Of a DNA stretch of 48,420 nt, positions 8,008-44,600 are shown piece after piece. The notes below the pieces were generated by a model. That model saw only the letters and a list, made by a program, of their open reading frames with translations. It did no database searches and was not told the DNA's origin. Origin of the DNA: a virus; IMG/VR virus record IMGVR_UViG_3300008110_000086, positions 1 to 48,420 of that record; one strand, 5' to 3'. Each line of letters begins with the position of its first letter. Positions within the stretch are counted from its first letter, which is position 1. A program made the position numbers and the translations under genes.

Positions 8008-8640
8008 TTAGTTCAGATAACCATTCATCTTTAACCAATCCGCAAAAGCATCCTGAACAACCTGCAAAGTTTCTGAGTCTAACCTATCCCTATATGTGGA
8101 ATCAGCCTTGTTACTGATATGCTTTTTGCTAATATACTCCCCAACCAAAGCCTTGTTATTTCTATTCTCGGCAATATAATCTATTCTCCTTAACACTTCA
8201 TCCACATCAACTCGCAATTTGCAAATTTCAAATATTCTCGTAATTACTTGACGCTTATTTTCTTCAAAACTTTCAAAAATAACTTCAAGATCAGAATTCT
8301 GCTTCCAATAATTGTACTTTTCAACTATATCATTCAAAAAAATATTAATTTTTTCTTCGCTTAAAAAACGTATATCCAACATGCCAAAATCTATGCTGCT
8401 AGCCAAAATATCACGCAAATCCCTCTTCGTTGTAAAAATCACATCAGCCCAATCCCTTAGTCCGTCATCACAACTGTGGACCTTTAAAATATTAAATTTC
8501 TTTTCAGACTTTTCAACAAAATTATTCTCATAACCAAAATTAATTTCATGCTTAGGAAATAATTGCTCCAAACCAACCCTGACAATGTTGAAAATTCTTA
8601 AACTGCCAGACCTAGGTATCCCAGCTACTAATATGTTCAT
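8008..8640 (-). CDS. Sulfotransferase-like protein, second of a tandem pair
   Basis: The 210-residue product begins MNILVAGIPRSGSLRIFN. The P-loop-like GIPRSGS matches the PAPS 5'-phosphosulfate loop, and TKRDLRDILASS (about residues 91-102) matches the 3'-phosphate-binding RDPRD-x-x-x-S element. Sulfotransferases move sulfate from PAPS to carbohydrate or protein hydroxyls. Its ATG overlaps the stop of the paralogue at 8637 (ATGA), so the two are co-translated. Targets could be host or virion glycans, by inference. A related P-loop kinase is less likely because the second motif fits sulfotransferases well. Confidence 0.7.
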   Translation of the reverse strand: MNILVAGIPRSGSLRIFNIVRVGLEQLFPKHEINFGYENNFVEKSEKKFNILKVHSCDDGLRDWADVIFTTKRDLRDILASSIDFGMLDIRFLSEEKINIFLNDIVEKYNYWKQNSDLEVIFESFEENKRQVITRIFEICKLRVDVDEVLRRIDYIAENRNNKALVGEYISKKHISNKADSTYRDRLDSETLQVVQDAFADWLKMNGYLN

Positions 8641-9281
8641 ATTTTATACCCGTTGTCTAAAAGCCAATGACCAAAATTGTCATTTATTAATTTAGTTTGA
8701 TCTTCGCTTAATCTCTCACTGAAATGCAAATTTGTGTTCTCGCTAATATGATAATGACTCATTAAAGTCACCCAATCATATTGATCACGCTCCAAAACAG
8801 AATTTTTCTTTATCTCCTCCACACCATCCAAAACATGACCATAATTCGTATCAAATAACCCAAGTTTTTCAGAAACATTCATTATGTCTCTTAATCCAAA
8901 CCTGCCATACTCCTCATACACTAGCTCATAATCCGAATAAACCCCCCACAAATCATGCATCGCAATCACAGCATGCAAGAAGTTAAGTAAAACTTCATCG
9001 CCATAAACTCTCCCACGATGCTTGTGGAACTCCAAACTACTAGCTGCAACATCACGCAAATCCCTCTTCGTTGTAAAAATCACATCAGCCCAATCACACC
9101 ACTTTTGATCAAAATAATGTAACTTGATTATGTTGTGTACGCCAGCTTTTTGTAAATCAAATTTGTCATGCCAACCACAATGCAAACTCTCAAAAGAAAA
9201 TTTTTGCAGTAAAATCAATCTTATGATATTATACAACCTCGTACTCCCACTACGAGGTATGCCAGCTACTAAAATGTTCAT
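8637..9281 (-). CDS. Sulfotransferase-like protein, first of a tandem pair
   Basis: The 214-residue paralogue of the 8008 gene starts MNILVAGIPRSGSTRLYN and carries TKRDLRDVAASSLEF in the middle. Overall the two are well diverged, but they share a 45-base stretch with no differences (8410-8454 and 9051-9095) covering WADVIFTTKRDLRD. The DNA at the start of both genes is also very similar. This points to duplication followed by local conversion or strong constraint. No Shine-Dalgarno box is evident before its start. Confidence 0.7.
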   Translation of the reverse strand: MNILVAGIPRSGSTRLYNIIRLILLQKFSFESLHCGWHDKFDLQKAGVHNIIKLHYFDQKWCDWADVIFTTKRDLRDVAASSLEFHKHRGRVYGDEVLLNFLHAVIAMHDLWGVYSDYELVYEEYGRFGLRDIMNVSEKLGLFDTNYGHVLDGVEEIKKNSVLERDQYDWVTLMSHYHISENTNLHFSERLSEDQTKLINDNFGHWLLDNGYKI

Positions 9282-10130: not shown

Positions 10131-10958
10131 ATGATCAAAGAAATCCTCAAAGAAAATAAATTACAAATTGCCTCAATTTACTCGCTACTTATCATTCAAT
10201 ATGGTTTGTTTGCTATAATGCCATATCTCCTCGGCAAAGCCATTGACGATTTGCTCAAAAAAAATAGCACCGGCCTCGTCACACTTCTTATAGCCGAAAT
10301 TGCCGCCCTACTTCTAGGATTCTTCCTCAAAAGATATGACACAAAAGTATTCATGAAAATATTTTGCGATAAAGCAATCAAAGCAGTACAAATTCTAAGA
10401 GACAAAAATATTCTGCCATCCAAAATCGCCGCCAGATACCAACTAGTAGGCTTTTACTCGGATTTCTTCGAATATAGCTTGCCACAAATCATAAACTCAT
10501 TCATCGGCGCAGGAACAGCCCTAACCATGCTTTATATCACCGATCATAAAATTGGCCTAATAGCCAGCATCCTTTTCTTCCTCATGATTCTGGTAAACAA
10601 AATTTATAGCTTCAAAACACAAAAAATAGATCTCGATATTCAAAATAATAAAGAAAATGTTAACCACACCCTTATCGAAAATCTTGAATACAAACCACAT
10701 CTCATCAACCTAAGTGCAAACTATGTAAAAAAATCAAATCTCGATGCTGCTAACTTCTTTTTTAATGATTCGCTATCAATCATTATGCACGTATCCATAA
10801 TGATGATACTCGTTTACACAAATCCTACAGTAGGCGCTATTACATCCACACTACTGTATGTCGATAAATTATATGGCGTGACTTACAATATATTCTACTT
10901 CTTTATGTTCATGCGATCCATAGAAAATACCAACAAATTACTCCACGAAATGGATTAA
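10131..10958 (+). CDS. ABC-transporter membrane domain without ATPase
   Basis: The 275-residue product has about six hydrophobic segments (near residues 13-35, 45-65, 120-140, 143-163, 218-235 and 245-262) arranged as in ABC exporter membrane domains. No Walker A, signature or Walker B motif follows; the protein simply ends. It resembles the stand-alone six-helix ABC_membrane_3 type. An AAGGA ribosome site lies 8 bases upstream. No separate ATPase subunit is visible in the window, so it may pair with a host ATPase or act alone. Confidence 0.7.
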   Translation: MIKEILKENKLQIASIYSLLIIQYGLFAIMPYLLGKAIDDLLKKNSTGLVTLLIAEIAALLLGFFLKRYDTKVFMKIFCDKAIKAVQILRDKNILPSKIAARYQLVGFYSDFFEYSLPQIINSFIGAGTALTMLYITDHKIGLIASILFFLMILVNKIYSFKTQKIDLDIQNNKENVNHTLIENLEYKPHLINLSANYVKKSNLDAANFFFNDSLSIIMHVSIMMILVYTNPTVGAITSTLLYVDKLYGVTYNIFYFFMFMRSIENTNKLLHEMD

Positions 10959-11413
10959 CAACATCCACTACTACCACACGACCCACTTACCCCACATTTG
11001 TCTGGAGCTAAACAATTAGCATTAACACTCTTCAAATGAATAGTTACCGTCTGTTCACTCAATTGCACCAAATTGATAAAATATAAACCCAAAGTTTCAG
11101 TCTGATACTCAAAAATAACAGGCAAATTACCCAAATCTAAATAACCACCAGCCTCAATAATCCTCATCAACTTGTCTAAAGTTATTTGATGATCAACATC
11201 ACTGGCAACCCAAAGTTGCATACTACAATAATCTTCTCTCCTCTTAACACCCCCACAGTCTACAAAATCCTTTTGAATCCGACCTATCTCAGTAACATGA
11301 TAATGTTCAGGCACATACTTTCCATCAGGCAAACAAAAACGAATCTTTGATTCCAAACTTAATTTATTCAATATTCCAAGAAATTCATTCAAACTCATGT
11401 CGCTGTATGTCAT
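10955..11413 (-). CDS. DUF6428-like protein with Cys-rich tail
   Basis: From the ATG at 11413 (GAGGTG 7 bases upstream; a TTG at 11428 is less likely) the product is 152 residues. The body contains FCLPDGKYVPEHYHVTEIG, FVDCGGVKRREDYCSMQLW and VASDVDHQITLDKL, which match my memory of the DUF6428 family, often seen near bacterial arsenic-resistance genes. The tail CGVSGSCGSSGCC carries four closely spaced cysteines and may bind a metal. It converges with the ABC-domain gene by a 4-base overlap. Role unknown. Confidence 0.65.
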   Translation of the reverse strand: MTYSDMSLNEFLGILNKLSLESKIRFCLPDGKYVPEHYHVTEIGRIQKDFVDCGGVKRREDYCSMQLWVASDVDHQITLDKLMRIIEAGGYLDLGNLPVIFEYQTETLGLYFINLVQLSEQTVTIHLKSVNANCLAPDKCGVSGSCGSSGCC

Positions 11414-11476
11414 TTTGCACCTCAACAATATTATAGAAAAATTTGTTTTTCAAATTGTATAAAGATAAAATTTTTT

Positions 11477-11887
11477 ATGAATAAATTTTGCAATTCCTGC
11501 AAACAAGAAAAAACAATCGAAAGTTTTAGCTATAAATCAAAAATAAAAGGCACAAGACACTCTAAATGCAAAACATGCCACAGAATTGATCAAAAAAAAC
11601 ATTACCAAAAAAACACCGATTACTACATTCAAAAAGCTAGCGAAAAAAAGAAACAAACCAGAGAATGGTGGCAAGAATATAAAAAACAATTCAAATGCGC
11701 TTGCGGCGAATCTCACCCAGCTTGCATCGAATTCCACCACCACGAAAAAAATAAAGAAGATGATGTCTCACACATCATGAATAATGGCAGTAGAAAAAAA
11801 GGCTTGGAAGAAATCAAAAAATGCATTCCTATTTGCAGCAATTGTCACAGAAAATTACACTATGAGTTGAGATATAAAAGCGGGTAA
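11477..11887 (+). CDS. HNH endonuclease
   Basis: The 136-residue product starts with a zinc ribbon (CNSCKQEK ... CKTCH, residues 5-36), followed by a basic helical linker and an HNH core. The core has CACGESHPACIEFHHHEK, with FHHHE as the first His block, and CIPICSNCHRKLHYE as the second, with CxxC and HxxxH zinc ligands. Enzymes of this type nick or cut DNA and often behave as free-standing mobile genes. Its last codons and TAA stop (AGC GGG TAA) are formed by the 3' end of a tRNA-like sequence on the other strand (11880-11949), which suggests that it moved in beside a tRNA. Confidence 0.85.
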   Translation: MNKFCNSCKQEKTIESFSYKSKIKGTRHSKCKTCHRIDQKKHYQKNTDYYIQKASEKKKQTREWWQEYKKQFKCACGESHPACIEFHHHEKNKEDDVSHIMNNGSRKKGLEEIKKCIPICSNCHRKLHYELRYKSG

Positions 11888-11949
11888 CGAGATTCAAACT
11901 CGTACTAGAAACCTGTGTAAGGATTCAGAAATTTAAAATTAATCCCGAT
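11880..11949 (-). pseudogene. Broken tRNA-Gly copy (3' half intact)
   Basis: Bases 11880-11912 are identical to 13496-13528, the T-arm and 3' acceptor strand of the intact tRNA-Gly. Beyond that, similarity continues only as AAGGATTC in the anticodon stem. The D-arm and the 5' acceptor strand (GCGGGTA in the good copy) are degenerate; TCGGG is present but does not complete the stem. The anticodon loop no longer reads TCC. It looks like a partial duplication or att-type remnant. It overlaps the stop codon of the HNH gene. Confidence 0.65.
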
Positions 11950-11957
11950 GATATGCT

Positions 11958-13355
11958 TTAAGTAATATTTTTAACTTTTTGCATCAAGTCTTCAAAGTTC
12001 ATGCGACCCATAGCCTTTGCCAATTTGATGGCGTAAGGCTGGGTGTTCCAACTGCTGACATCAAGATAAATTTTATCTTTATGCTCTTCAGGGATGACTA
12101 AGCCGCTGTCGATAAGCATTTTCAAAATTGGATCGTCAAGCTTTTCTTTGGGAACTTCAATGTTTTTAAGTTGGTATAAGACACCTCGGTAACCGTTACC
12201 CAAATCTTTTTGGATTAACTTGAAATTTTGAGTCCAATAGGAGTTTTTCAAGATTTTCTTGATCTTCTCGTCAGTGATGTCTTTGTCAAGAATGACTTGT
12301 CTTCGATTGGGAAAACCTCGGTCGTCACGAACTTCTTCTTCCCCAATAATCCCGGCATCTAATAAGGCAATGTATTCGGGATCATCATAACTAAAAAATT
12401 CGCCTTTCTTGAGTTTGGCTGTCACGGGGTGTTCTGTCACAGGCACATCTTTAAACTTTTTCCATTTTGTCTGGATACGGCTTCCAAGAGTTACTTGCTC
12501 AGCAAGCAAGAAGGGTTCTAAATTACTTGATGGGATGCGTCCTCTGTAAGCCAGTGTTGAAGAAACATCTACAGATCCTTGAGCAGTAACCGATCCTGTA
12601 TCTTCGTCTGGGGCTAAGCGGCTGGGATCGAGTCCGGTTGTATTGATGCGTATGATAAGTGGACTACCGCCATATTTATTGGCCGCTTGTTTGGCGGCTG
12701 TACGGGTAGCAGCGTCCGGGTCTGTGGATAAGTAAACTAAATCGCTATGGCTTAATGCACTAACATTCTGTGAGCCGTAGCCACCAGTAGAGCCGGTCAG
12801 ACGGCGAGGTGCCAAGCCTTTTTCTTTGATTCCTTCATACCATAGATTGGTTGAAGTGCCGTGGTAGAAATACTTGGGCATCTTGTTGGCCAGACGAACT
12901 TCTGGTCGGCTCATCCAGTATGCCACAGTTCGGTAGCGGCCATTGCCTCCCTGCATGTGCCCTGACATAAAATAATGTTCAACGGTATACTTGTCGATGT
13001 CAGGATGTTTGCTTCGTAAAGCGTTGATGATCTGGCGAAACTTCTTGGACTGTGGTCCCAACTGGTGTAGCTGAATGCGTCTATCTGAGGTCATGACTAA
13101 GTGAGGTTTATTAGTCTTGTAGTCGTAAGGAATAATGTTGCCTTTATTGTCCAATGTTAAGGCAAAATTACGACTGAGGTAAGGTTTGCCCTCATAGTTT
13201 TGAAACTTTTCGGGGTTTGTGATTTTGGGGTCAAAAATAGCTTCTGTAAGTTGCAGCCACTCCTTGAAACACCCGCACATAGTTTTGGCAGTTGTTGAGG
13301 ACAGGGTGTCGGCTAAGGGATATTTGATATGAATTTGGTCAAGAAATTTTTCCAT
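11958..13355 (-). CDS. ADP-ribosyltransferase-like protein, possibly injected
   Basis: The 465-residue product has, near residues 160-280, YFYHGTSTNLWYEGIKEKGL, LVYLSTDPDAATRTAAK, GGSPLIIRINTTGLDPSRL and SSTLAYRGRIPSSNLEPF. This order of 'YHGTS', 'VYLS' and 'YRG-IP' fits the ADP-ribosyltransferase fold of the KptA/PARP-like (H-Y type) branch, whose members use NAD to modify protein or act on 2'-phospho-RNA. Residues 26-42 hold CFKEWLQLTEAIF, resembling a capsid-targeting motif with a gp21-type cleavage site (L-T-E before A). The GC content looks higher than in neighbouring genes, like the capsid genes. It lies between the broken and intact tRNA-Gly copies. Target unknown. Confidence 0.65.
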   Translation of the reverse strand: MEKFLDQIHIKYPLADTLSSTTAKTMCGCFKEWLQLTEAIFDPKITNPEKFQNYEGKPYLSRNFALTLDNKGNIIPYDYKTNKPHLVMTSDRRIQLHQLGPQSKKFRQIINALRSKHPDIDKYTVEHYFMSGHMQGGNGRYRTVAYWMSRPEVRLANKMPKYFYHGTSTNLWYEGIKEKGLAPRRLTGSTGGYGSQNVSALSHSDLVYLSTDPDAATRTAAKQAANKYGGSPLIIRINTTGLDPSRLAPDEDTGSVTAQGSVDVSSTLAYRGRIPSSNLEPFLLAEQVTLGSRIQTKWKKFKDVPVTEHPVTAKLKKGEFFSYDDPEYIALLDAGIIGEEEVRDDRGFPNRRQVILDKDITDEKIKKILKNSYWTQNFKLIQKDLGNGYRGVLYQLKNIEVPKEKLDDPILKMLIDSGLVIPEEHKDKIYLDVSSWNTQPYAIKLAKAMGRMNFEDLMQKVKNIT

Positions 13356-13495
13356 GTTTGTATATATGAACTGTATTTATTTTTGCTGGCTCTTGCCGTC
13401 TTAAAGATAAATGCCTTGATCAGTTGTTTATCTCACCAGCGTTATTACATCTTTTAATCTAGTAAATGCAAGCCTATGCATTGTTGTTAGAAAAA

Positions 13496-13565
13496 GCGGG
13501 TAACGAGATTCAAACTCGTACTAGAAACTTGGAAGGATTCCGTGCTATCATTACACCATACCCGC
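13496..13565 (-). tRNA. tRNA-Gly (anticodon UCC)
   Basis: The minus strand folds into a full cloverleaf: acceptor GCGGGTA/TACCCGC (7 bp), D-stem GTGT/GCAC with loop AATGATA, anticodon stem GAATC/GTTTC with loop CTTCCAA (anticodon TCC), a 4-base variable loop, and T-stem ACGAG/CTCGT with loop TTTGAAT. The features GGTGTAATGATAGCAC and CTTCCAA are typical of tRNA-Gly. Oddities are a T-T mismatch in the anticodon stem and T instead of C at T-loop position 3. CCA is not encoded. It would supply decoding of GGA and GGG codons. Confidence 0.85.
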
Positions 13566-13710: not shown

Positions 13711-14853
13711 CTAATCTAGTTCTCCTCGTTTTACTTTTTGGCAAAACGATCTCATGTTTTTCTCGTTGTAGACTGCTCCAAACAAAGTAGTCTCCTCCCA
13801 TACTTCAAATGCCATTTCATGCTTGGATGCATAAGCTTTGCCAGCGTCAATCTTGGCAACAACCGTTAGATCCTGAAGCCACTTGTTAGGCTTTACTTCA
13901 ATTAGTTTTTTGGTGCCATCATCGTAATAGACAACCAAGTCTACAAGATAAGATCCGTTAATGCATTTCACAGGATTGTAATAATTTATAGCCGTTGATT
14001 CATATTCGTACTTCAAAACACTGTTGTCCTCATCCAGTTTCATAAATGCTTTTTTCTCATAAGAAGATTTGTACTTTATAACCTTGTCACATTTTTTAGA
14101 AATGTGTGTGCCCCTAGCATGATGTGTTTTTGCATCGAATCCATTAATGTGTTGTTGTATAGCAGCCTTGCTTAATTTCTCCCTTGTTGTTTTTAACAGG
14201 CCTCCTTGGGCACTAAGCATTTCCTTTCTGCCTTCACTTATGTTTTGTTTGTGTTCATCTGTGTAAACCCTTCCAGACATAAGTTTAGACATTTTACTTT
14301 TTGTTTCTATGCTATGATGCTTGCCCAGCATCCCACTTCCTCTATTTTCTGTGAGCGTTTTTTTAATTTGCGCTAATCTTTCTGGATGGGCATGCAAATA
14401 ATCTCGTAATTTTTTTTTAAATTCATCTGTTCTTTGTATGCCAGTTAATTTTTGGCTAATTTTGCAACGGTGTTCTTCTGAAATTGTTTTTTCTAACTGG
14501 ACGCAACTTTTGCACTTTTGAATGTAAGGTTGTTCTAAGTTGCCAAAATACCCGCTCATTTTCATAGTTCTGGTTTTATCACCTTTATGTCTGGGATCTG
14601 GACACACCACAACTATTTCTTCATCTGTTTGTCTTTTAGCAGCACCTTTGGTGTTCATTGGGTTCTTGTACTTCATTTGACAATCACGACAAACAAACTC
14701 TTCTCCTCCATTCTTAAGAATATTTCTTTTAGCCGAAACTTTTGCAATAGATCGTTTTCTATCTCCAGCATGGTTTGCATGATCGCAATATATTTCAACT
14801 ATTTCTTTATCTTTTAAGGTTTTAAACTTTTCATAAAACTTTTCAATATTCAT
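13711..14853 (-). CDS. Homing endonuclease: zinc ribbons, NUMOD3, PD-(D/E)XK
   Basis: From the ATG at 14853 (AAGGGG 7 bases upstream) the product is 380 residues. Two similar zinc-ribbon segments lie in the N-terminal third: YCDHANHAGDRKRS...CRDC and VCPDPRHKGDKTRT...CKSC. They are followed by NUMOD3-type DNA-binding repeats (GKHHSIETKSKMSKLMSG, RVYTDEHKQNISEGRKEM). The C-terminal domain has YKSSYEKKAF, YLVDLVVYYDDG and KLIEVKP, the E...D...ExK pattern of TnsA/PD-(D/E)XK nucleases. This is the layout of phage free-standing homing endonucleases. It lies directly downstream of the capsid gene, past the terminator, and next to the tRNA. Confidence 0.75.
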   Translation of the reverse strand: MNIEKFYEKFKTLKDKEIVEIYCDHANHAGDRKRSIAKVSAKRNILKNGGEEFVCRDCQMKYKNPMNTKGAAKRQTDEEIVVVCPDPRHKGDKTRTMKMSGYFGNLEQPYIQKCKSCVQLEKTISEEHRCKISQKLTGIQRTDEFKKKLRDYLHAHPERLAQIKKTLTENRGSGMLGKHHSIETKSKMSKLMSGRVYTDEHKQNISEGRKEMLSAQGGLLKTTREKLSKAAIQQHINGFDAKTHHARGTHISKKCDKVIKYKSSYEKKAFMKLDEDNSVLKYEYESTAINYYNPVKCINGSYLVDLVVYYDDGTKKLIEVKPNKWLQDLTVVAKIDAGKAYASKHEMAFEVWEETTLFGAVYNEKNMRSFCQKVKRGELD

Positions 14854-14962
14854 GGCTTGCCCCTTGCTTAATATCGGCAAAATTAACAACCATAGTAATT
14901 ATACACCTAGCATAAAACTTTTCAAGTTCTTTTGAAAATTTTTTTTGTTTATTAAACACAAT

Positions 14963-16489: not shown

Positions 16490-17395
16490 TTACTTGGTAG
16501 GCTTTTTCACGCCTGAGAGAATTAAAAGCTCGTTTGCTTCACCGTTGTTGGAGTTATATTCCGCAATAACTTTAACGTTTTCGGTGTCGATATGTCCTCT
16601 CCCACTTACATTCTTTGCTTTGACTGCTCTCTCTTTCTGTTCAGTAAGAAGTTTGGTCTTCTTATTCTGAAGAACAACGTTTGTGCGTTGTTCGTTGATC
16701 ATGGTGGATGCCTTCTTAACGGACTCATTTAGACGGGTATTGTCTGTTGAGAGTCTGATATTTCTGGCTTCCATGATTCTGAGTTGGCCCTTGAGTTCTT
16801 CGATGTTCTTGCGGGCTTCATCTAGCTTGGTGGAGGTAGCGAAGGTGCGTTCCTCATCACTTAGGTAGTCGGATGCGATGTTGACGATCTTATCTAGTGC
16901 GACTTTGTGTTCGAGGACACGTGGGTCGTTGACTAGGTCATGGCGAGCTTGTTCGTAGATTTCAGCGCCCTTCTGTTGAAGGAATTCGTCAACTTTGTCT
17001 ACGATGTAGGCTTTCATTTCGGCTAGTTTGCCGTCATATTCTTCGTAGAGGTCGGTTTCTACCTGAGACTTCTTGTTTCTTTCGTCAAGCAGCATCTGGT
17101 AGGCTTCTTCGTAGCCTTCTTCTAGGGTCTGTTCGAATTCTGCCTTTTGGACTTCTAGGCGGGTTTTAAGATCATTGATGATCTCATAAGCCTCTTGGTA
17201 TCCTGTGTAGGCGGTTTTCTCAGCTTCGGATAGTTCCTGAGAAAGCTGTGAGTAAGCTTCTTCTAGGTTCTTATTAAACTCCTTTTCCATTTCCTCTTTT
17301 GCTTCGGAGAGCATTTCGGTAACGGCAGAAGCGACCTCATTGATTTGGTCAGCGGGAACCAATTTCTTTAGTGATTCGACAATTTTGTTTTCCAT
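16490..17395 (-). CDS. 22: Prohead scaffold protein (gp22-like)
   Basis: From the ATG at 17395 (GAGGTTGGG upstream) the product is 301 residues, highly charged and almost fully helical. Long coiled-coil stretches are seen (about residues 30-150 and 190-265; EEMEKEFNKNLEEAYSQLSQ). It starts ENKIVESLKKLVPADQINEV, as gp22-type core proteins of this cluster do. The position between protease and major capsid protein is the same as in T4. Family members form the internal core around which the prohead assembles and are then degraded by the gp21 protease. Its start overlaps the protease stop (TAATG). Confidence 0.9.
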   Translation of the reverse strand: MENKIVESLKKLVPADQINEVASAVTEMLSEAKEEMEKEFNKNLEEAYSQLSQELSEAEKTAYTGYQEAYEIINDLKTRLEVQKAEFEQTLEEGYEEAYQMLLDERNKKSQVETDLYEEYDGKLAEMKAYIVDKVDEFLQQKGAEIYEQARHDLVNDPRVLEHKVALDKIVNIASDYLSDEERTFATSTKLDEARKNIEELKGQLRIMEARNIRLSTDNTRLNESVKKASTMINEQRTNVVLQNKKTKLLTEQKERAVKAKNVSGRGHIDTENVKVIAEYNSNNGEANELLILSGVKKPTK

Positions 17396-18063
17396 TATCC
17401 CAACCTCGTAATGATGTTTTTGGTTTTCTCTTTTACAAGTCCGCCCAAGCAAGCTATGAGAGCATCTTTGTTTACACTATGTATGCTGCTGGTTTCATTT
17501 TTTGTGGGCTTTCCTGATTTTTCTTCGGGAAAATGCTCCTGATTTTCCTTAGTTACCACTTTCTCTTGGAAAGCGGCGAATGTTGAGGGGTCAGCAACGA
17601 CATCGAAGGTGATGAGTTTATAAGACTCATCGATGACTAGGATGCCATTTTCATTCACCTTACCATTGCCAACGCCTCTGGATGAGACTCCTACACGGAC
17701 ACCATCATTGATTAGGGCTTTTAGAATTTTTCCATGAGGGGTGTTGAGGATTTCACCTTCGCCCATCAGGATATTTCCTTCCCACCATAATTTTGTGATT
17801 ACGTGGGATGCTTTTTCAAAATGAATGATGCTGTCTTCAGGGTGGTCGAGTTCACCAATTAGACCTCTGGCTTTAACGCATTCTTGCAATTTCTTAACAT
17901 TCTCATTTAGTACGCTGTAGCTGTACATTCTTTTGTTTTTGTTGACGGCTTCTGCCTCTTGGAACTTGCCTCTGAACCGTGTTAGACCACGGTCAGAGGA
18001 TTCGTTCAGATTCATCACCAATCCGCCGCTCATGCAGCTATCTACTAGTAATATGTCTCTCAC
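17395..18063 (-). CDS. 21: Prohead core protease (gp21-like)
   Basis: The 222-residue product has the herpesvirus/T4 prohead protease signature: His in IGELDHPED (H74) and Ser in RVGVSSRGVG (S127 or S128), with RMYSYSVLNENV upstream. The enzyme cuts scaffold and capsid N-termini during maturation; in T4 it cleaves after [IL]-x-E. The start codon is GTG with TAGGAG 5 bases upstream. The C-terminal third is poorly conserved and polar. The stop overlaps the scaffold start by one base. Confidence 0.93.
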   Translation of the reverse strand: MRDILLVDSCMSGGLVMNLNESSDRGLTRFRGKFQEAEAVNKNKRMYSYSVLNENVKKLQECVKARGLIGELDHPEDSIIHFEKASHVITKLWWEGNILMGEGEILNTPHGKILKALINDGVRVGVSSRGVGNGKVNENGILVIDESYKLITFDVVADPSTFAAFQEKVVTKENQEHFPEEKSGKPTKNETSSIHSVNKDALIACLGGLVKEKTKNIITRLG

Positions 18064-19887: not shown

Positions 19888-20029
19888 CTTTATCTCCTGA
19901 AAAGTTTGCAATATAATCTAGTTCGAGATTATATATTAAGGATGTTGATCTTTGTATATCGTTAACAAAGAAAACACTTTCCAACTTATTTGTTATGTAT
20001 GCAGCGGCCCTTATTTCTTGGTGACTCAT
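19868..20029 (-). CDS. Possible 53-aa DUF5659-like peptide
   Basis: A short frame from ATG at 20029 starts MSHQEIRAAAYITNKLESVF and resembles half of the duplicated domain in the 34784 gene (DLGVAAYILM...TFIFNVN). The ATG overlaps the divergent ATG at 20028 (shared CATG), its 3' end overlaps the start of the core-like gene by 20 bases, and no ribosome site is seen. I regard it as possible, supported mainly by the similarity to the other protein. Confidence 0.35.
   Translation of the reverse strand: MSHQEIRAAAYITNKLESVFFVNDIQRSTSLIYNLELDYIANFSGDKDEEKIY
19911..19934. promoter_or_regulatory. Palindrome upstream of the core-like gene
   Basis: ATATAATCT (19911-19919) and AGATTATAT (19926-19934) are perfect inverted arms around a 6-base centre, 23 bases upstream of the core-like gene start. 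This suits a repressor site or an mRNA hairpin just before the ribosome site. It also lies inside the doubtful small frame at 19868. Confidence 0.45.
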
Positions 20030-20330
20030 GAAACTATTTTCGGAATATTTGAAAGAAAATGCGGAAAATAATGGTTTTGATTTTGCCAAGTTTCCAGCTG
20101 AGATCCAGAATCAAATAGTTGACAAGTCTATGAATATTTTTGAACATATGATGAGAAAATATCCAAGTGATTGCATGGATTTTATATCAAAGTTTGTTAC
20201 TAAAGATGAATTTATAAAATCTGAATACGATACTATGAAGACTTTGGGATCAGCTTTTGGCGACAATCCCAAAGAATATGGTTTGGGTTACATTAAGGGC
20301 AATTATCCCAAAACTGGTTTGAATAATTAA
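20028..20330 (+). CDS. 100-aa protein with capsid-targeting-like N-terminus
   Basis: The product starts MKLFSEYLKENAENNGFDF. This resembles the T4 capsid-targeting sequence, with L-K-E as a possible gp21 cut. The rest is a small helical domain ending in a Gly/Asn/Pro tail. GGTGA lies 5-9 bases upstream. The gene is an isolated plus-strand gene inside the minus-strand head operon, between core-like protein and portal, a typical place for small internal head proteins. Function otherwise unknown. Confidence 0.6.
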   Translation: MKLFSEYLKENAENNGFDFAKFPAEIQNQIVDKSMNIFEHMMRKYPSDCMDFISKFVTKDEFIKSEYDTMKTLGSAFGDNPKEYGLGYIKGNYPKTGLNN

Positions 20331-20353: not shown

Positions 20354-20372
20354 AATGTGTGCGAAGTCACTC
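20354..20372 (-). repeat. 19-nt CRP-site-like motif, copy 4, at the portal stop
   Basis: The minus strand reads GAGTGACTTCGCACACATT, two changes from consensus, and contains the TGA stop codon of the portal gene. The following bases, GCCTTCAAATCAATGTTAAA, resemble the continuation of the 71-nt repeats (CAATGTTTAAA), so this is a shortened, diverged third post-stop element. Confidence 0.55.
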
Positions 20373-22877
20373 ATAGTCATCATAATCAGGTGATTCAATA
20401 TCTTCTTCGTTGGCATAATCTTGAATTTCAAGATCGTACTTTTGGATATCTGCCGAATTAGGAATCGGAAGTGTTTCTGTGCTGCCAGCTTCTGGAGTTG
20501 GTGCTTCGCCGGTTGGTGAAGGTTCTGTTTCTGGTGGTGTTTCTCCGGGTGGGGACAACATTGGATTTGGTCCTTCTGGTGTCGTCCCAATTTCTTCTGC
20601 ATCTTCTTCGCTTGGAGCGGGAATTCCAACGCCAAGCAAAGCTGGATTTTGAGAAAGAATCTGTAGTTTTGCATCTTCGATTTTTTGCATTTTTGCTCTA
20701 GCCATGATGAGTTTTGCATCTTCATCGGTATAACCCATCCATTTTGTAAGGATGTCATAATCGCCCATGATGGCTGCGCTTTTAAGCCCTGTGGCATTTT
20801 GTATTCTTGCAGTGACTATTTCGGCTCTGCTCAATTCCCTCCATTCTGATGGAGGAGTCATTCTAACCTGCAAATCGTCGTAGGAGTCGAGAGGAAAACC
20901 TCGTAACTTTAAATGTCTATCAGCTACTTCCCACATTGCATCTTCAAATGGAGCTTGCAATCTTTCAATCAATCTAGCCACTCTAATGTCTTGTGCTGAG
21001 AGTGTAATTCTCGTAACAGCTGCATCTTCGACATTGAAGTAATTTTTGGGGAATTGCAATGCTGTAAAGAGTCTGTTCCGAAAGTAAACGGCATCATCTA
21101 TTTCACCTAGATTTTGCGCACCGGGAAGCGTTTCAATTTTGGTATTAGAATTGGGTCTTATTGGCAACCAATAATCTTCATCGACGGCTGGAGCGTGGTA
21201 TCTTTCTTCTACAGAATTTGGACCTTGCATGCCTGCTCTGTTGCTGCTGATTTTTTTCTTTCTGAATTGATCTTTTAATTTTTCCACAAAAGCTTCTGCT
21301 TTGAATGGAGGAAGTTGTCCTACATCGATGTAAAATACACGGCGTTCAGGACTGCGGCTTAATCTGTAAACCAGCATGGCATCTTCCATAAGTCGTAGTT
21401 GGTGTGCTGGACCTCTGGCGGCTTCTACCATGCTTACTCCATATGGGTAGAAAGTTTTTCTATCATCGCCAATTCTGGCGTGTATTATTTGCTCTGGAGA
21501 AAACCTAATTGCAGTAGCCATCATGATATCTTGCTCTGTGGCTTGAGTCACAGGCGCTCTTGTGAGGCTTTGGTAATCTGGTCCTTCCTTACTTTGTTGA
21601 AACTCTACGACCCTTCCTTTAGTGGTTTCAATTCTGTAGATGGATTCTGGCGGGAGTCTTGATATGCGCATGACTCCATTTTTAGGACTATCAAGATCAA
21701 TAATTATTTCATAAAAAAGATCGCCATAAAGCAAAAGGCTTTTGAAATCGGCCCATGCTCTGCGATCAATATTGATCATGGATTTGTGGAAAAACAAGAA
21801 TTCTAATTCTTCACGCACATCATCATTTTTGCATTCTATTGTAAGAATGTGACCTTTGTCATTTTTTTGGCAGTTGTGTACAACTGCGCTGTTTGTGCAG
21901 AAGTTTTGATGATCTTCTACAGAAAGGTCAAAAACCTCCTTTACTGATCCTTCAAGCTTGCTTACAACTCTTCTTCTATCCTTTTTGCGTGAAATTACTC
22001 GCAATTCATCTAGAGTAAAGCCTTCGGCCCGCAATCTGTTTTTAACAGTTTTCCAATCGCAATCTACCATATTGGTGATTTGGTGCATAGTCATGCCGCT
22101 TGCGATGAGTCTTGCGTACTGATTGATTCTATCAAGTTTGATATTCGATTTACCAGTTCTCCATTCGTCTACAAATTGTCTTTCATGCATCCAGCCTTTT
22201 TGGAAAGTAAATATTCTTGGATATTGTTTTGTTGGTATTTTTGTAAGGTACTGACTGGCTGGCAGCCTGTAAAAAGGCATCAATTCATCGTCTTCGTTAA
22301 TTTCGCCAGCTTGCCTCCAGCTACCATCTCTCATAAGAATTCGGTGATCTGTAGTTGTTTCAAGACTTGTGCCATCGTCGAGAACAAGAATTTGGGTTTT
22401 GGCTACTTTTGTCATTCTTGGAGAGTGTGCCCAACCAAGTGTGTAATCTTGTTTTTTAAAATCCCAGCAGTATACAAGAAACTTGTCATTTGCTTGTTTT
22501 TCAGCGAGTTCTTTTATTGGTATCATGCCAAATGGAGTGGCTATGAGGGTGTTTCCTGCCAAACATGATTCGTCGGAGAAAACGTTCAAAGCCATTTCTA
22601 TTTCTGGAATGTTTCTTAGTCTTTCGTATTCTTTGTAACGACTTTGTCTGTTTGTTACTGTTGACAGATCAATGAAGTCATTTGTTTCCCTGAGTCTAAT
22701 TAATCTTGAGTCGGAGTTTGACCAAAAACTGCCATCGGGACTTAGCGATGGTATGGAGTCTGGCTGAATGATGCCTGCGCCAACCACGTCCTTGGTTTGC
22801 AGGGTGCGTGCTAAAGGATCTTTTGTGAAGGCAAAATCAAATGTTTTGAAAAAATCTGCCCAAATAGGTGTTGGCAT
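20367..22877 (-). CDS. 20: Portal protein (gp20-like) interrupted by an intein
   Basis: The precursor is 836 residues; the intein occupies residues 105-335, leaving a mature portal of about 605. Portal parts include YKEYERLRNIPEIEMALNVF before the intein and, after it, FKSLLLYGDLFYEIIID, RLPPESIYRIE, YPYGVSMVEAARGPAHQLRL, ALQFPKNYFN and AVTRITLSAQDIRVARLIER, a typical gp20 set. The C-terminal 130 residues are Pro/Glu/Ser-rich and acidic. Portals form the dodecameric ring at one capsid vertex, used for packaging, ejection and tail joining. A TATAAT box (complement of 22911-22916) lies upstream. The stop is inside a copy of the 19-nt motif. Confidence 0.93.
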   Translation of the reverse strand: MPTPIWADFFKTFDFAFTKDPLARTLQTKDVVGAGIIQPDSIPSLSPDGSFWSNSDSRLIRLRETNDFIDLSTVTNRQSRYKEYERLRNIPEIEMALNVFSDESCLAGNTLIATPFGMIPIKELAEKQANDKFLVYCWDFKKQDYTLGWAHSPRMTKVAKTQILVLDDGTSLETTTDHRILMRDGSWRQAGEINEDDELMPFYRLPASQYLTKIPTKQYPRIFTFQKGWMHERQFVDEWRTGKSNIKLDRINQYARLIASGMTMHQITNMVDCDWKTVKNRLRAEGFTLDELRVISRKKDRRRVVSKLEGSVKEVFDLSVEDHQNFCTNSAVVHNCQKNDKGHILTIECKNDDVREELEFLFFHKSMINIDRRAWADFKSLLLYGDLFYEIIIDLDSPKNGVMRISRLPPESIYRIETTKGRVVEFQQSKEGPDYQSLTRAPVTQATEQDIMMATAIRFSPEQIIHARIGDDRKTFYPYGVSMVEAARGPAHQLRLMEDAMLVYRLSRSPERRVFYIDVGQLPPFKAEAFVEKLKDQFRKKKISSNRAGMQGPNSVEERYHAPAVDEDYWLPIRPNSNTKIETLPGAQNLGEIDDAVYFRNRLFTALQFPKNYFNVEDAAVTRITLSAQDIRVARLIERLQAPFEDAMWEVADRHLKLRGFPLDSYDDLQVRMTPPSEWRELSRAEIVTARIQNATGLKSAAIMGDYDILTKWMGYTDEDAKLIMARAKMQKIEDAKLQILSQNPALLGVGIPAPSEEDAEEIGTTPEGPNPMLSPPGETPPETEPSPTGEAPTPEAGSTETLPIPNSADIQKYDLEIQDYANEEDIESPDYDDYE
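21873..22565 (-). mobile_element. Intein inside the portal gene
   Basis: The 231-residue intein starts at C105 (CLAGNTLIATPFGMIPIKEL, block A). It has block B around ETTTDHRILMRDGSW, with the Thr-x-x-His, and ends with blocks F/G: VKEVFDLSVEDHQNF and VVHN followed by Cys as the first extein residue. All splicing residues are present, so splicing should work. There is no LAGLIDADG core. The insert (about residues 205-305) instead contains a helix-turn-helix-like stretch (MTMHQITNMVDCDWKTVKNR), probably what remains of, or replaces, a homing domain. It sits at a conserved spot of the portal (NVFSDES/CQKND). Confidence 0.92.
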
Positions 22878-28407: not shown

Positions 28408-30018
28408 ATGAGTCTAATAAATAAAACAGTGGATTTTTTTAAGAATTTGTTTTCAAAATTTTATAACAGCACAAAATCCTGTTGTAATGTGAAAAGTTTA
28501 AATAATGGCCTTGTCACATATCTTATTAATGACCCTGACTATCCAAATTTGCTGGTGCAAGTTGATAATCCCAAACCGAACGGCTTGAATATTAATGTGA
28601 AGTTTTATATTGGTGCAACTGCCGAAAATTTTGATAGTGTTCAAGGCAAAGCGGCAAATGTTTATGGACTTTTGTGTCATGGAATCAACATTTTTAATCG
28701 CAAATTGAATTTGAGAAAATGGTTTGCTACAAATGTGCTTCAAGTGGATCCTCTTGCAGGTCAGCAGGCAAACGCATATTACGATAGAAAAAGCCTTAAA
28801 TTTTTCTTTTTCGACAGAAACAACACAACTGTTTATACTTGTTTGTCATCAGACATAGTAAGTCATGAATTAGGGCATGGTTTGCTTGATGCCTTTAGAC
28901 CAGATTTTTTCAATATGGCCAATATGGAAATAGCTGCTTTTCACGAAGCGTTTGGAGATGTCACGGCAATGATTTGTACTTTACATCATCCAGCTATTGT
29001 AGATTTCATGTTGCAGGAAACTGGTGGTAATCTTAGGCAGCACAACATTGCTACAAAACTGGCAGAACAATTCGGTAGGAATTTAGGATATGCTCATGCA
29101 TTGAGAAATGCATACAACGATCACAAGTATGTTAAGCCAAACACTTTGCCGAAAAACGGACATGGTGACGGTTTGTTTAATGAACCTCATAGTTTTTCAA
29201 AAATTATGTCTGGTATTTTTTACGAATTATTTTGTGAAATTTACGAAGCTAAAGGACGCAATAGAAACGCATTAATTTTCGCAAGAGATTATATGTTTGA
29301 CACTTTCTTAGAAACCTGTATGGTTGCTCCATCGACCGCCAATTTCTTTGAGACTTTTTGTCAAACTTGGCTGTCGGTTGATGCCAAAAGGCCGGAATCA
29401 TTTAAGGATTTGTTGAACAAGGTATTTGCAAATAGGGCTGTGTTTCAGGCTAAAGCCATGTCTTCATCTTGCGAATCTGAAAAGTATCCAAAGAAACATG
29501 TGGAGAAATTAGACACTCATGATCTTGTAATTCAAAAATGCGAATTATCTTTGCCTGTAGCTGACATTTTGCCAGACTTGGTAGCAGCCCAGTCAGATGA
29601 TTTGTTTAGCAAACTAAAAGTGCAACTGCCGGTAGATGGACTGATGATGCAGTCAGTTGATGGCGATAAATTCGACATGGCTGCCAGTACAGATGAAGCT
29701 GTTGCTTGTGCAAAAGATTTTGTGATGTATATTGTTGACAACAAGCTATATGGAGATCAAGACGATCAGACATGGACAAAAGACGATGATGATAATTTAG
29801 TGCGCAAGTACATTTCATGCGACTGTTACATGCCAAATAGCACAAATCCTCAAGCTCCAGAATATCAAAAAGGATATAAACCTTTAAATAATTCGGGATG
29901 TTGCACATATGGCAGCTGTGCAAATTTAAACAATGAAACCGGCGTAGCTGTTGAAAAAACCTGCAATGTACGCTATCATAGTTCATGCAGATCAGTCTCA
30001 TATAATGGCAAATGCTAG
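28408..30018 (+). CDS. M4/M36-like zinc metalloprotease
   Basis: The 536-residue product carries HELGH (residues 153-157) and, 23 residues on, FHEAFGDVTAM, giving the third zinc ligand (E180) and the following Asp. HExxH plus E-x-x-x-D is the gluzincin pattern of thermolysin- and fungalysin-type peptidases. A second helical lobe follows (to about 330), then a linker, and a Cys-rich C-terminal part (SCDCYMPN, GCCTYGSCANL, SSCRSVSYNGKC) that may form disulfides outside the cell. There is no signal peptide, only an amphipathic N-terminus, so delivery would be on the virion or by lysis. GGGGGTG lies upstream. It could degrade host surface protein. Confidence 0.8.
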   Translation: MSLINKTVDFFKNLFSKFYNSTKSCCNVKSLNNGLVTYLINDPDYPNLLVQVDNPKPNGLNINVKFYIGATAENFDSVQGKAANVYGLLCHGINIFNRKLNLRKWFATNVLQVDPLAGQQANAYYDRKSLKFFFFDRNNTTVYTCLSSDIVSHELGHGLLDAFRPDFFNMANMEIAAFHEAFGDVTAMICTLHHPAIVDFMLQETGGNLRQHNIATKLAEQFGRNLGYAHALRNAYNDHKYVKPNTLPKNGHGDGLFNEPHSFSKIMSGIFYELFCEIYEAKGRNRNALIFARDYMFDTFLETCMVAPSTANFFETFCQTWLSVDAKRPESFKDLLNKVFANRAVFQAKAMSSSCESEKYPKKHVEKLDTHDLVIQKCELSLPVADILPDLVAAQSDDLFSKLKVQLPVDGLMMQSVDGDKFDMAASTDEAVACAKDFVMYIVDNKLYGDQDDQTWTKDDDDNLVRKYISCDCYMPNSTNPQAPEYQKGYKPLNNSGCCTYGSCANLNNETGVAVEKTCNVRYHSSCRSVSYNGKC

Positions 30019-41628: not shown

Positions 41629-44600
41629 TTATTCTCCAAGCAGTTCATCTCTATCAATTTTAATTGATGAATCTGTTGGAATAATTTTCATCTCATTTTT
41701 ATCTTTAGGATTAATAGTTTTTTCTAAAATGGGCAAAGACTCGGGTTTTACAACCAGATCCGATTGCACAGATAATGTTTCCGGCTTACCTAAATCATAA
41801 ACTTGCTCTTCACTTTGCTCCGTAGTCTTTACAACAGCTGAAGCTGTATCAAGCTTGGGCAAACTGTTATAAATTTGCATGGTTTCAGCTTTGAATGAAT
41901 ATCCATCTTTTGCCACCTTGTAACCTACAGAAACAGTTGTTTCAATTGCCTTGCCACTTAACTCTTCGTTGTTAAGCATTTTTTGTTTTGCTACCTGCGC
42001 TTGAGTGTAATCTGCGAAAGGACCGGCCACAAAATTATCAGTGGGCGGTTTATCTAGATCAACAACTGCCATCTTGCCATTTTTAAGTTTTACTACATAG
42101 AAATTGGAAACATCAAAGGCTTGAGAAATTTGATTTGCAAAACTCAAAGGAACAACAGCAGGAGCGGGATACGGAGAAATCGCAAAATAAGCTGGTAGGC
42201 TGCCATTCAAATTGGAGTTATTAGGTATACCATTGGCATAAGCCGCATTCAATATATAGGTAAAAATCTCCATAGTGGAATCAAACTTAAGACTTACAGC
42301 ACTTTGATTTCCAAAGTAAGCTGAAAAAGGACGTGATTGCAAGTTGCCTTGATAGGTGCCACCTTGTAATAAGGTAGATGACAAGCTTGTAAATGTATCA
42401 TTGGCATATGAGAACCTGCCAGCACCCGGATTTGTTCCTATTGAAATATATCCATTGGTTACGTTGCCATCGTTTGTCCATACATTTAAATCTGTGTTCC
42501 AACCAGTAGAGTCATTGAATGTAGAAAGCTGACTCAAGACATCCGTTGTGTAGGACAACTGGAAAACCGTCTCGACAGGATTGGTTCCGTATGTACTATA
42601 ATTGTCATTGGCAATGCCAGCCAAAATACCTCTTACCCCCTGTTGAGAAATGCTTTGATACAAAGCACCAACAAATGCAGCAGGCAAACTCGATCCTAGC
42701 AAAGAAGCAGTGTCAGAACTGTAAATCAGCTTTGAAATCTTATTGCTCGTAGTGTTATTTGCAGCAAAATAACCTTTTGTCTCGCCTTCCGAAAAACCAG
42801 AATTGCCAAAAGCATTTCCAATTGGATCAGTTGCCAATGAAACGCTACCACTTAATTGTGTACTTACTTCAGTAGCATAAGAAACTTTTGTTTTTGTGGC
42901 TATGTAACCGCTAACAGAGTTGCCAGATAAGTAGGCCAACTCATTTCCATCTTCATAGCCTGCATACAAGTCTGAACTAGTCACAGCTAGCCAGAAAATC
43001 ATGTTTGTTGCACTCCAGCTTTCAGTTGCATATGAAAACTTGTATAGATACAAGCTGTTGACTGCAAAACTACCATAAGAATAATCGGTAGAAGAAGGCG
43101 GCAATACAGTATTCACAGGCAGCATTTGAGAGAATTCGCTAATACCACTGTATGTGCTTCCAGTAGTGGCTATGAATGTGACGGAAACGGTGCTTGATGT
43201 ATCTGTTGAAAATGATATCGCATCAATATCTCCAGCGCCTGTGCCTCCAGAATAACTTGGCACAACTCCATTCCAGAAATATCCTTTATCCGCCTGATTA
43301 GAAATTGCAGAAACCAATCCTGTATTATCAGCAATGTCAGCTGGAGCTTGAAGGAACATGACTTCGTTTGCCAAATTCAATATTTCGGTTTCCGTAATTC
43401 CAGAAGTTAAAAAGCCAGAAGTGTATTCATACCCACTTGTGATATAAGCTTTAACATCGGTGTTGGCGACAGAAGCACAGGACACCCTATTCTTTTGCAG
43501 GAATGTGGAGTTGGCAAAATACAAAGTGTCTGTGGTGTAGTTCATTTTTTCAATGAATCCCGACATCACACTTTGTGTTGGAGCGCTATTGTAGCTACCA
43601 CTAAATCCATAGGAATTGCCTCCATAATATCCTCCAACAAAGTATCCCGTATAACTTGAGCCGCTTACACCCGTTCTTCCATAGTAATACAATTGCAAAT
43701 TAGAGTATTGTCCATAATCAATGGTATCAGTAGAATAATTAAATCTTTTTGTCCTAAGGCTGGGAACTCTCTGGCCCAAACCTGTTTCGGAAAAATAACC
43801 CTTTGAATTATCACCTGAACATGTTGCGACTGCATTCATGTTTTCTTGTGTGAAAAACAAAGTAGTTACGATATCTGTGCTGTAATCAACATTGTAGTAG
43901 GAAGTGCTGGAAGCTTCGATGGGGACCAAGACATCGCCGCCAACTATATTAGTCAATACATCGTAGTCTAAAATACGTACAACACCCTTGGTTCCAGATG
44001 AAATTCCATAAGATCTTCTATTTACTTCGCCATAACTGTAGCCAGAAGGAAAGACACCTGTCGTTGCAACAAAATTTTCAGTTGTGAAATCAAATTTATT
44101 CAAATATGTTCTAACTAGCGCCGTATTGGTTAGGAAATATCCCTTGGTGCCTTGGTTAGTCATACACGGATTAACAGAAATTGACGCTAGTCCGGTTCTT
44201 GCAGTCCCAAGCTTGGCACTTAGTTGTGCTGCCGTAGTGTCAGTGCTAAATAGTAATTTATCAGTATTATTAATAGCTGTGCCTGTATCGCCGCCAGCAA
44301 AGTATCCCTTACCTAGTCTTTCGCTACTGCCAGATGTCTTTTGTCTATTAATACTTAAATTTGCGCTAGCCGTTGCAGATGATATGTCTGTTGCATAATT
44401 CAAAGCGTCCGCAACGTTCGTATAAGTTGCTGCAAATCCACCAGCGAAGTAACCCTTTGCACCGTTAGACGCACCATCACATCCAGCTAAGAACCTTCTA
44501 CCAACACTTAGCTCAGCTGTGGTTACAGATGCCGCTGTTTCAGTGCTAAATGATAACTTGTCAGTAGTTTTCCAATTCGCTCTGCTAAAACCACCCGAAT

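Follow-up and report, generated by a model that had tools for sequence, protein, structure and literature searches.

A gene in a fragment of a huge T4-like phage probably encodes an ADP-ribosyltransferase (ART) that is packaged in the virus head and injected with the genome. The DNA analysed (the window) comprises positions 1 to 48,420 of IMG/VR virus record IMGVR_UViG_3300008110_000086. The fold, the conservation of an N-terminal tag, the insertion and the tagged neighbours of related genes were computed, and on these we infer packaging, cleavage, injection, catalysis and a target. The gene would be transcribed late in infection from a late promoter, the tag (from about Met26) would dock the protein into the prohead core, and a gp21-type protease would cut after LTE38, freeing the enzyme among the packaged DNA. 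In the next infection the ART would enter the cell with the DNA and use NAD to ADP-ribosylate a macromolecule of the host or of a defence by means of H165, Y208 and probably D250. The gene would be accessory cargo, a one-gene 1.6-kb cassette inserted at the 3' end of a tRNA-Gly gene that belongs to the phage itself, with relatives placed in islands of similarly tagged cargo in kin phages.

On its minus strand the window, a 48.4-kb piece of a virus, carries a T4-type head module. The module and the small ORF associated with it consist of the following:

head module, minus strand: gp23 (PF07068, E 1.8e-88)
head module, minus strand: scaffold at the gp22 position
17395..18063, minus strand: gp21-type prohead protease (PF03420, E 1.1e-28)
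20028..20330, plus strand: small tagged ORF (MKLFSEYLKENAE) between portal gp20 and gp21
20367-22877: portal gp20 (PF07230, E 8.9e-74)
head module: gp17

The gp23 protein is 78% identical to that of LR756511.1, a 595-kb uncultured phage, and 81-88% identical to those of 80 IMG/VR loci, one of which lies on a 532-kb contig; by this kinship the window therefore belongs to a huge T4-like phage. The gp21-type protease is the predicted processing enzyme for the tagged ART. The small tagged ORF between gp20 and gp21 recurs in the same arrangement in kin phages. In T4 this is the position of the prohead-core genes 67 and 68, and the tag of the ART also marks a small gene at the gp67/gp68 position. 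The portal gene contains an intein (PF14890, E 2.7e-11, residues 120-335). Adjoining gp23, the gene at 13711-14889 encodes a TnsA-like nuclease domain (PF08722, E 9e-11; PHROG 218, head closure) fused to segments like those of homing endonucleases (PHROG 314); a similar gene comes after gp23 in G001.

The ART gene and the features discussed below are as follows:

13374..13381, minus strand: AATAAATA, a motif like the late promoter of T4, 18 nt ahead of the first ATG (Met1)
11958..13355, minus strand: ART ORF, 465 amino acids counted from Met1
13233..13271, minus strand: capsid-targeting-like signal CFKEWLQLTEAIF, residues 29-41
between 13242 and 13241, minus strand: predicted prohead-protease cut, LTE38/A39
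12486..12893, minus strand: ART domain, residues about 155-290 (AlphaFold, Foldseek, VIA-align)
12852..12866, minus strand: motif 1, YHGTS, residues 164-168 (H165); YHGT invariant in nine sequences
12726..12737, minus strand: motif 2, VYLS, residues 207-210 (Y208)
12606..12608, minus strand: D250, candidate third catalytic residue, invariant in nine sequences (D96 of the domain alignment)
12531..12548, minus strand: motif 3, YRGRIP, residues 270-275 (Y270); Y, G and I invariant in nine sequences

The first-pass annotation, made by eye, had the ORF exactly right, and the N-terminal signal that it quoted is found at residues 29-41. There are two possible starts, Met1 (13355) and Met26 (13280). 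Met26, which gives 440 amino acids, is likely to be the true one, because the full-length homologues L089, L090, L143 and L144 begin exactly at the equivalent position (MTTFKQWLLSEAI). A start at Met1 would put 25 extra residues ahead of the signal, which short targeting sequences do not usually have. The promoter motif AATAAATA is placed for Met1, not for Met26. The GC content of the ORF, 0.433 against a window average of 0.382, resembles that of the capsid genes (gp22 0.443, gp21 0.427, gp23 0.519) and differs from that of the neighbours (HNH, DUF6428 and a gp4-like gene, 0.333-0.359), as had been judged by eye.

Whole-protein searches of INPHARED (E 0.01), PDB sequences, Pfam, NCBIfam and PADLOC and a single-sequence scan of IMG/VR returned nothing. 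Only a search with the ART piece at E up to 10 reached the Vibrio phages nt-1 and KVP40, and an alignment of two ART regions retrieved the full-length IMG/VR relatives L089 and L090, and later L143 and L144. In whole-record searches L089 and L090 scored E 2.7e-63 and 1.6e-59 over residues 29-464. No relative was found in the bacterial genomes scanned with a five-member alignment, and no ART of this family was present in the 80 gp23-kin loci or elsewhere on 13 of their contigs. The KVP40-type relative (PHROG 11974; KVP40, nt-1 and VH7D) is a 370-residue protein with an ART domain about 34-36% identical to that of the window protein; its N-terminus, MKNLKSFMEE, aligns without a gap to the T4 signal MKTYQEFIAE, and it has a weak PARP match (E 3e-5). 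Unlike the window ART it is shorter, has another C-terminus and a Phe in motif 2, and its gene adjoins phoH and asiA, away from the head genes.

PHROG 11974 was also the only ART-side profile match of the window protein (E 6.5e-5, residues 160-252). Profile searches with Pfam, NCBIfam and PADLOC gave no match, and PF01885 (KptA), PF00644 (PARP) and PF12120 (Arr) did not match. Structure prediction and comparison with KptA and Alt had been suggested as a check. When this was carried out, two AlphaFold models (mbda28fa1fb07 and mce26fb47b4ec) displayed an ART fold with the NAD lobe of KptA/Tpt1 as the best solved match. Confidence in the models was moderate. The full-length model, built from seven sequences, had a mean pLDDT of 58.5 and a pTM of 0.48, with low confidence in the N-terminal region, and the model of the domain alone, from nine sequences, had 65.8 and 0.64; loops were of low confidence in both. 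The leading seven Foldseek matches in the PDB were all ARTs, and the domain model matched KptA/Tpt1 with E 2.9e-4. In VIA-align comparisons with the two separate models KptA/Tpt1 NAD lobes ranked first (Z 11-12, rmsd mostly 2-3 Å over about 90 residues); Rhs ART toxins (Z 7.4-8.3), DarT (up to 8.0) and Arr (6.7-7.2) scored well below them. A profile search of all PDB sequences returned KptA alone (E 0.18). According to the models the protein has an ART fold, and NAD binding is predicted.

The three motifs reported by eye are present in ART order: FYHGTS with H165, VYLS with Y208 and AYRGRIP with Y270. Across nine diverse sequences FYHGT, D250 and the Y-x-G-x-I of the third motif are all kept, and residue 208 is Tyr in seven of the nine and Phe in KVP40 and VH7D. 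D250 comes after strand 3, the motif-3 strand has the sequence AYRGRIP or AYKGII, and the nine-sequence domain alignment lacks an invariant Glu. From these motifs we read the protein as an ART of H-Y-D type, distinct from Alt, KptA and PARP, with inferred activity and with H165-Y208-D250 as the likely, predicted catalytic set.

The suggestion that the enzyme is of KptA/PARP type held for the fold, which is nearest to KptA, and failed for the catalytic signatures of KptA and PARP, which are both absent. The NAD-lobe fold, YHGT with the helix that follows it and GL-x-P are shared with KptA/Tpt1. Membership in KptA was rejected on the second motif, where TkoKptA has MKRQYVHVS, the window protein SHSDLVYLS and its homologues FNY[IL]T, so that the His is replaced by Tyr and the neighbouring Arg is not kept. 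Membership in PARP (H-Y-E) was rejected on the motif-3 strand, which lacks an invariant Glu. An enzyme of the KptA/Tpt1 kind, removing the 2'-phosphate from tRNA in RNA repair, would suit both the best structural match and the tRNA neighbourhood of the gene. This role is nevertheless highly improbable: the alignment to KptA covers just chain residues 85-187, that is, the C-terminal NAD lobe, with no RNA lobe matched (the N-terminal region of the model being of low confidence), KptA VHVS is VYLS or NY[IL]T here, PF01885 is unmatched, and the tRNA is an insertion site (see below), not a conserved partner.

T4 Alt is a head-packaged mono-ADP-ribosyltransferase of the Arg-Ser-Glu clade, whose marks are an Arg on strand 1, an S-T-S strand and an E-x-E loop. 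The proposed relationship to Alt did not survive comparison of the motifs: strand 1 carries H165 (in YHGT), strand 2 carries Y208, and an invariant Glu is missing, and the R-S-E family was rejected accordingly. Alt was absent among the structural matches listed, which by itself excludes nothing.

As no Glu is conserved and Y208 is replaced by Phe in KVP40-type relatives, ART activity may be altered or lost. The product could then be a packaged, catalytically dead protein of ART fold that merely binds NAD or RNA, and the low-confidence loops of the models leave room for this. We regard it as improbable: the invariance of FYHGT, Y270 and D250 in nine diverse sequences fits a kept NAD site, and Arr-type ARTs too use Asp in place of Glu.

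The case for packaging of the presumably active ART comes from its N-terminus. The core of the tag, FKEWLQLTEAI, begins four residues past Met26, and in five full-length homologues its residues F, K, W, L, E, A and I are invariant; the tag may be written as MTTFKQWLLSEAI or MCGCFKEWLQLTEAI. The signal of T4 IPIII is ten residues long, with residues 4 and 7 directing targeting, and gp21 cuts following L/I-x-E (PMC9026906). The F-x-x-W spacing of the tag equals that of IPIII residues 4 and 7, and its L-T-E or L-S-E corresponds to a gp21 site. Thus the hallmarks of a T4-type capsid-targeting sequence, aromatics three apart and then L/I-x-E, are present, at the expected position provided that Met26 is the start. 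The claim of a T4-type signal found support in a tag that is lineage-wide, carries a gp21-type site and is accompanied in the window by a gp21-type protease; the cut, which had been placed after E39, is now predicted after LTE38, before A39.

In strict form, the tag was found at 60 of 1068 gene starts in five lineage contigs, compared with 8 of 4090 internal Met residues and about 2 expected; an earlier control gave 97 of 1137 starts against 6 expected. The tag pattern was tuned after the data had been seen. A scan of the 80 kin loci and the window with F-x-x-[WFY]-[LI]-x-hydrophobic-x-E, a strict composite form, gave 32 occurrences; 25 began no further than residue 20 of an ORF, and only four beyond residue 45. 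These patterns suggest that the tag probably loads the ART into the virus head.

The T4-late-promoter-like NATAAATA occurs within 60 bp upstream of lineage genes 47 times against about 7 expected, and ATAAATA lies within 80 bp upstream of 26 of 93 tagged genes versus 41 of 987 others. A late promoter motif upstream of tagged genes fits packaging, because packaging requires late synthesis. The late-type motif upstream of the ART gene would also suit late synthesis of an enzyme that works in the cell where it is produced, for example on superinfecting phages or host defence, the tag serving for localisation other than to the head. A general sorting tag would likewise fit its presence on proteins as diverse as a sigma factor, a Nudix hydrolase and a ParB-like protein (see below), and the KVP40-type relatives lie outside head gene clusters. 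We think this unlikely, for the tag has the L-x-E site of the prohead protease, is common to the small gene at the gp67/gp68 position and has its residues spaced in the way that matters for the targeting of IPIII.

The head-packaged ART favoured here resembles T4 Alt in several ways: it is a predicted ART, it bears a prohead signal and an L/I-x-E cut site at its N-terminus, and its phage has gp20, gp21, gp22 and gp23. Unlike Alt it belongs to a clade with His in motif 1, Tyr in motif 2 and a KptA-like lobe, and its gene is at a different position, inserted at a tRNA. Like T4 IPI-IPIII, as accessory cargo, it has aromatics spaced by three close to its N-terminus and then L/I-x-E; unlike in these, the tag is F-x-x-W-L-x-L-x-E and the cargo consists of large enzymes in islands of many genes.

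The surroundings of the gene in the window contain the following features:

13495..13565, minus strand: intact tRNA-Gly (TCC), upstream of the ART gene; its 3' half is the left repeat copy
13492..13531, minus strand: left copy of a 40-bp direct repeat, from tRNA position 35 to 3 nt beyond the tRNA end
11876..11915, minus strand: right copy, 39/40 identical, an isolated 3' half of tRNA-Gly
11876..13491, strand not assigned: 1,616-bp insertion that holds the ART gene only; its removal gives the empty site of L009
11477..11887, plus strand: HNH endonuclease gene (PHROG 2255, E 5e-25)

The repeat begins at the last anticodon base of the tRNA. In the kin contig L009 the tRNA-Gly is followed without interruption by the HNH gene, the one lying beyond the second repeat in the window, and when the window flanks were joined they aligned to L009 over 544 columns with no gap and 472 identities. 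The tRNA-Gly likewise adjoins HNH in L004, and the other three virus contigs with this tRNA end have a single copy each. Given the gapless empty site in L009, the ART gene therefore arrived as a 1,616-bp unit that left the tRNA whole. The DUF6428 gene (10955-11428; PF20001, E 1.4e-36) stays near the tRNA-Gly in the kin contigs L004, L013 and L036.

Of the features of a tRNA-integrated element, the direct repeat of the 3' end and the empty site are present; no recombinase was found in the 1,616-bp insert, where the ART gene is the only credible gene. The insert may have moved by site-specific recombination with an enzyme supplied in trans; alternatively tRNA genes may have exchanged homologously, an event that the HNH nuclease next door perhaps initiated. 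The tRNA genes of T4-like cyanophages have been suggested as recombination sites, and the present insert resembles such tRNA-targeted mobile cassettes in lying at the 3' end of a tRNA, which a direct repeat restores (PMC3037559). Unlike these, the insert has a single gene as cargo, no recombinase, and an exact empty site in a relative. Duplication of a tRNA 3' end as a general mechanism for cargo was absent in G001, G002 and G003, and the near copies seen in G006 are of other tRNA genes in full; the insertion is thus one documented event. The GC content of the ART gene, 0.433, differs from the 0.31-0.33 of its homologues, so that none of the phages found was its immediate donor.

In the window the neighbours of the ART gene are untagged. 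In kin phages, 23 of 35 genes within 5 kb of an ART homologue are tagged, compared with 56 of 945 in the background. The count covers all such genes in three non-redundant contigs, and was used instead of a Fisher test on islands picked by tag density, which would be circular. In L144 10 of 12 called genes are tagged, and L004 has a similar tagged cluster at 44-57 kb. A tagged sigma-factor homologue (PHROG 1740, E 3.1e-12; N-terminus MLTFFEYINNINLNEAQ) is encoded on the minus strand at 1278-1937 in L144 and 5-664 in L143, and is a possible head-packaged sigma factor. Two genes past the ART homologue there is a tagged Nudix hydrolase (PHROG 1198, E 7.7e-25), starting MTTFKQFLENDEE, on the plus strand at 7109-7588 in L144 and 6567-7046 in L143; it may act on ADP-ribose products. 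Three tandem tagged paralogues of 567, 621 and 725 residues (L100 7450-13221; G001 47450-53221) share an N-terminal domain, NKIGINPKS..TP.GIYFYPL, which is also tagged in G003 (44396-45589); ankyrin repeats (PF12796, E 3.8e-31) occur in the first of the three. Further tagged proteins include some that look ParB-like by eye. Several with motifs of YHGT, YHAT or YHRT type resemble other ARTs and have no profile match; an ART-like motif occurred in 14 of 102 tagged proteins versus 56 of 989 others (P 0.004), a modest excess obtained with a loose pattern.

Tentatively, and with slightly less than even confidence, we propose from these gene arrangements that huge T4-like phages may hold a modular arsenal of virion-packaged enzymes under one exchangeable N-terminal tag, with cargo genes moving singly between phages as cassettes, here into a phage tRNA gene. 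As part of this proposal most island genes (several ART-like, sigma-factor, Nudix, ParB-like and ankyrin) would be expressed late, and their products would enter the head, undergo trimming by the prohead protease and be injected together.

Packaged ARTs have been proposed widely from gene neighbourhoods, and in one survey about 44% of phage ARTs were in contexts suggesting packaging (PMC9503650). Head-packaged ARTs are already known from T4 Alt; the new elements are an ART clade with this tag, its form as a tRNA cassette and the tagged islands. A short and incomplete literature search found no description of tag-marked cargo islands in huge phages. Previously sequence gave no means of recognising such cargo. 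With a conserved tag that includes a protease site, one could list from sequence alone what uncultured huge phages inject, and a packaged sigma factor and several types of ART would be among the entries. The insertion at the tRNA, for which a relative has the exact empty site, shows one such cargo gene arriving as a unit.

Some other genes of the window are of separate interest. At 10131-10958 an ABC-transporter membrane domain (PF13748, E 1.7e-20) is encoded with no obvious ATPase partner, in a phage. Two tandem paralogues at 8008-9281, beginning MNILVAGIPRSGS, look sulfotransferase-like by eye and have relatives in kin contigs. The 536-residue product of 28408-30018 is by eye a predicted zinc metallopeptidase (VSHELGHGLLDAF), unusual in a phage, and the 2221-residue ORF at 41629-48294, with many GYFAGG-type repeats, is probably a tail fibre or adhesin.
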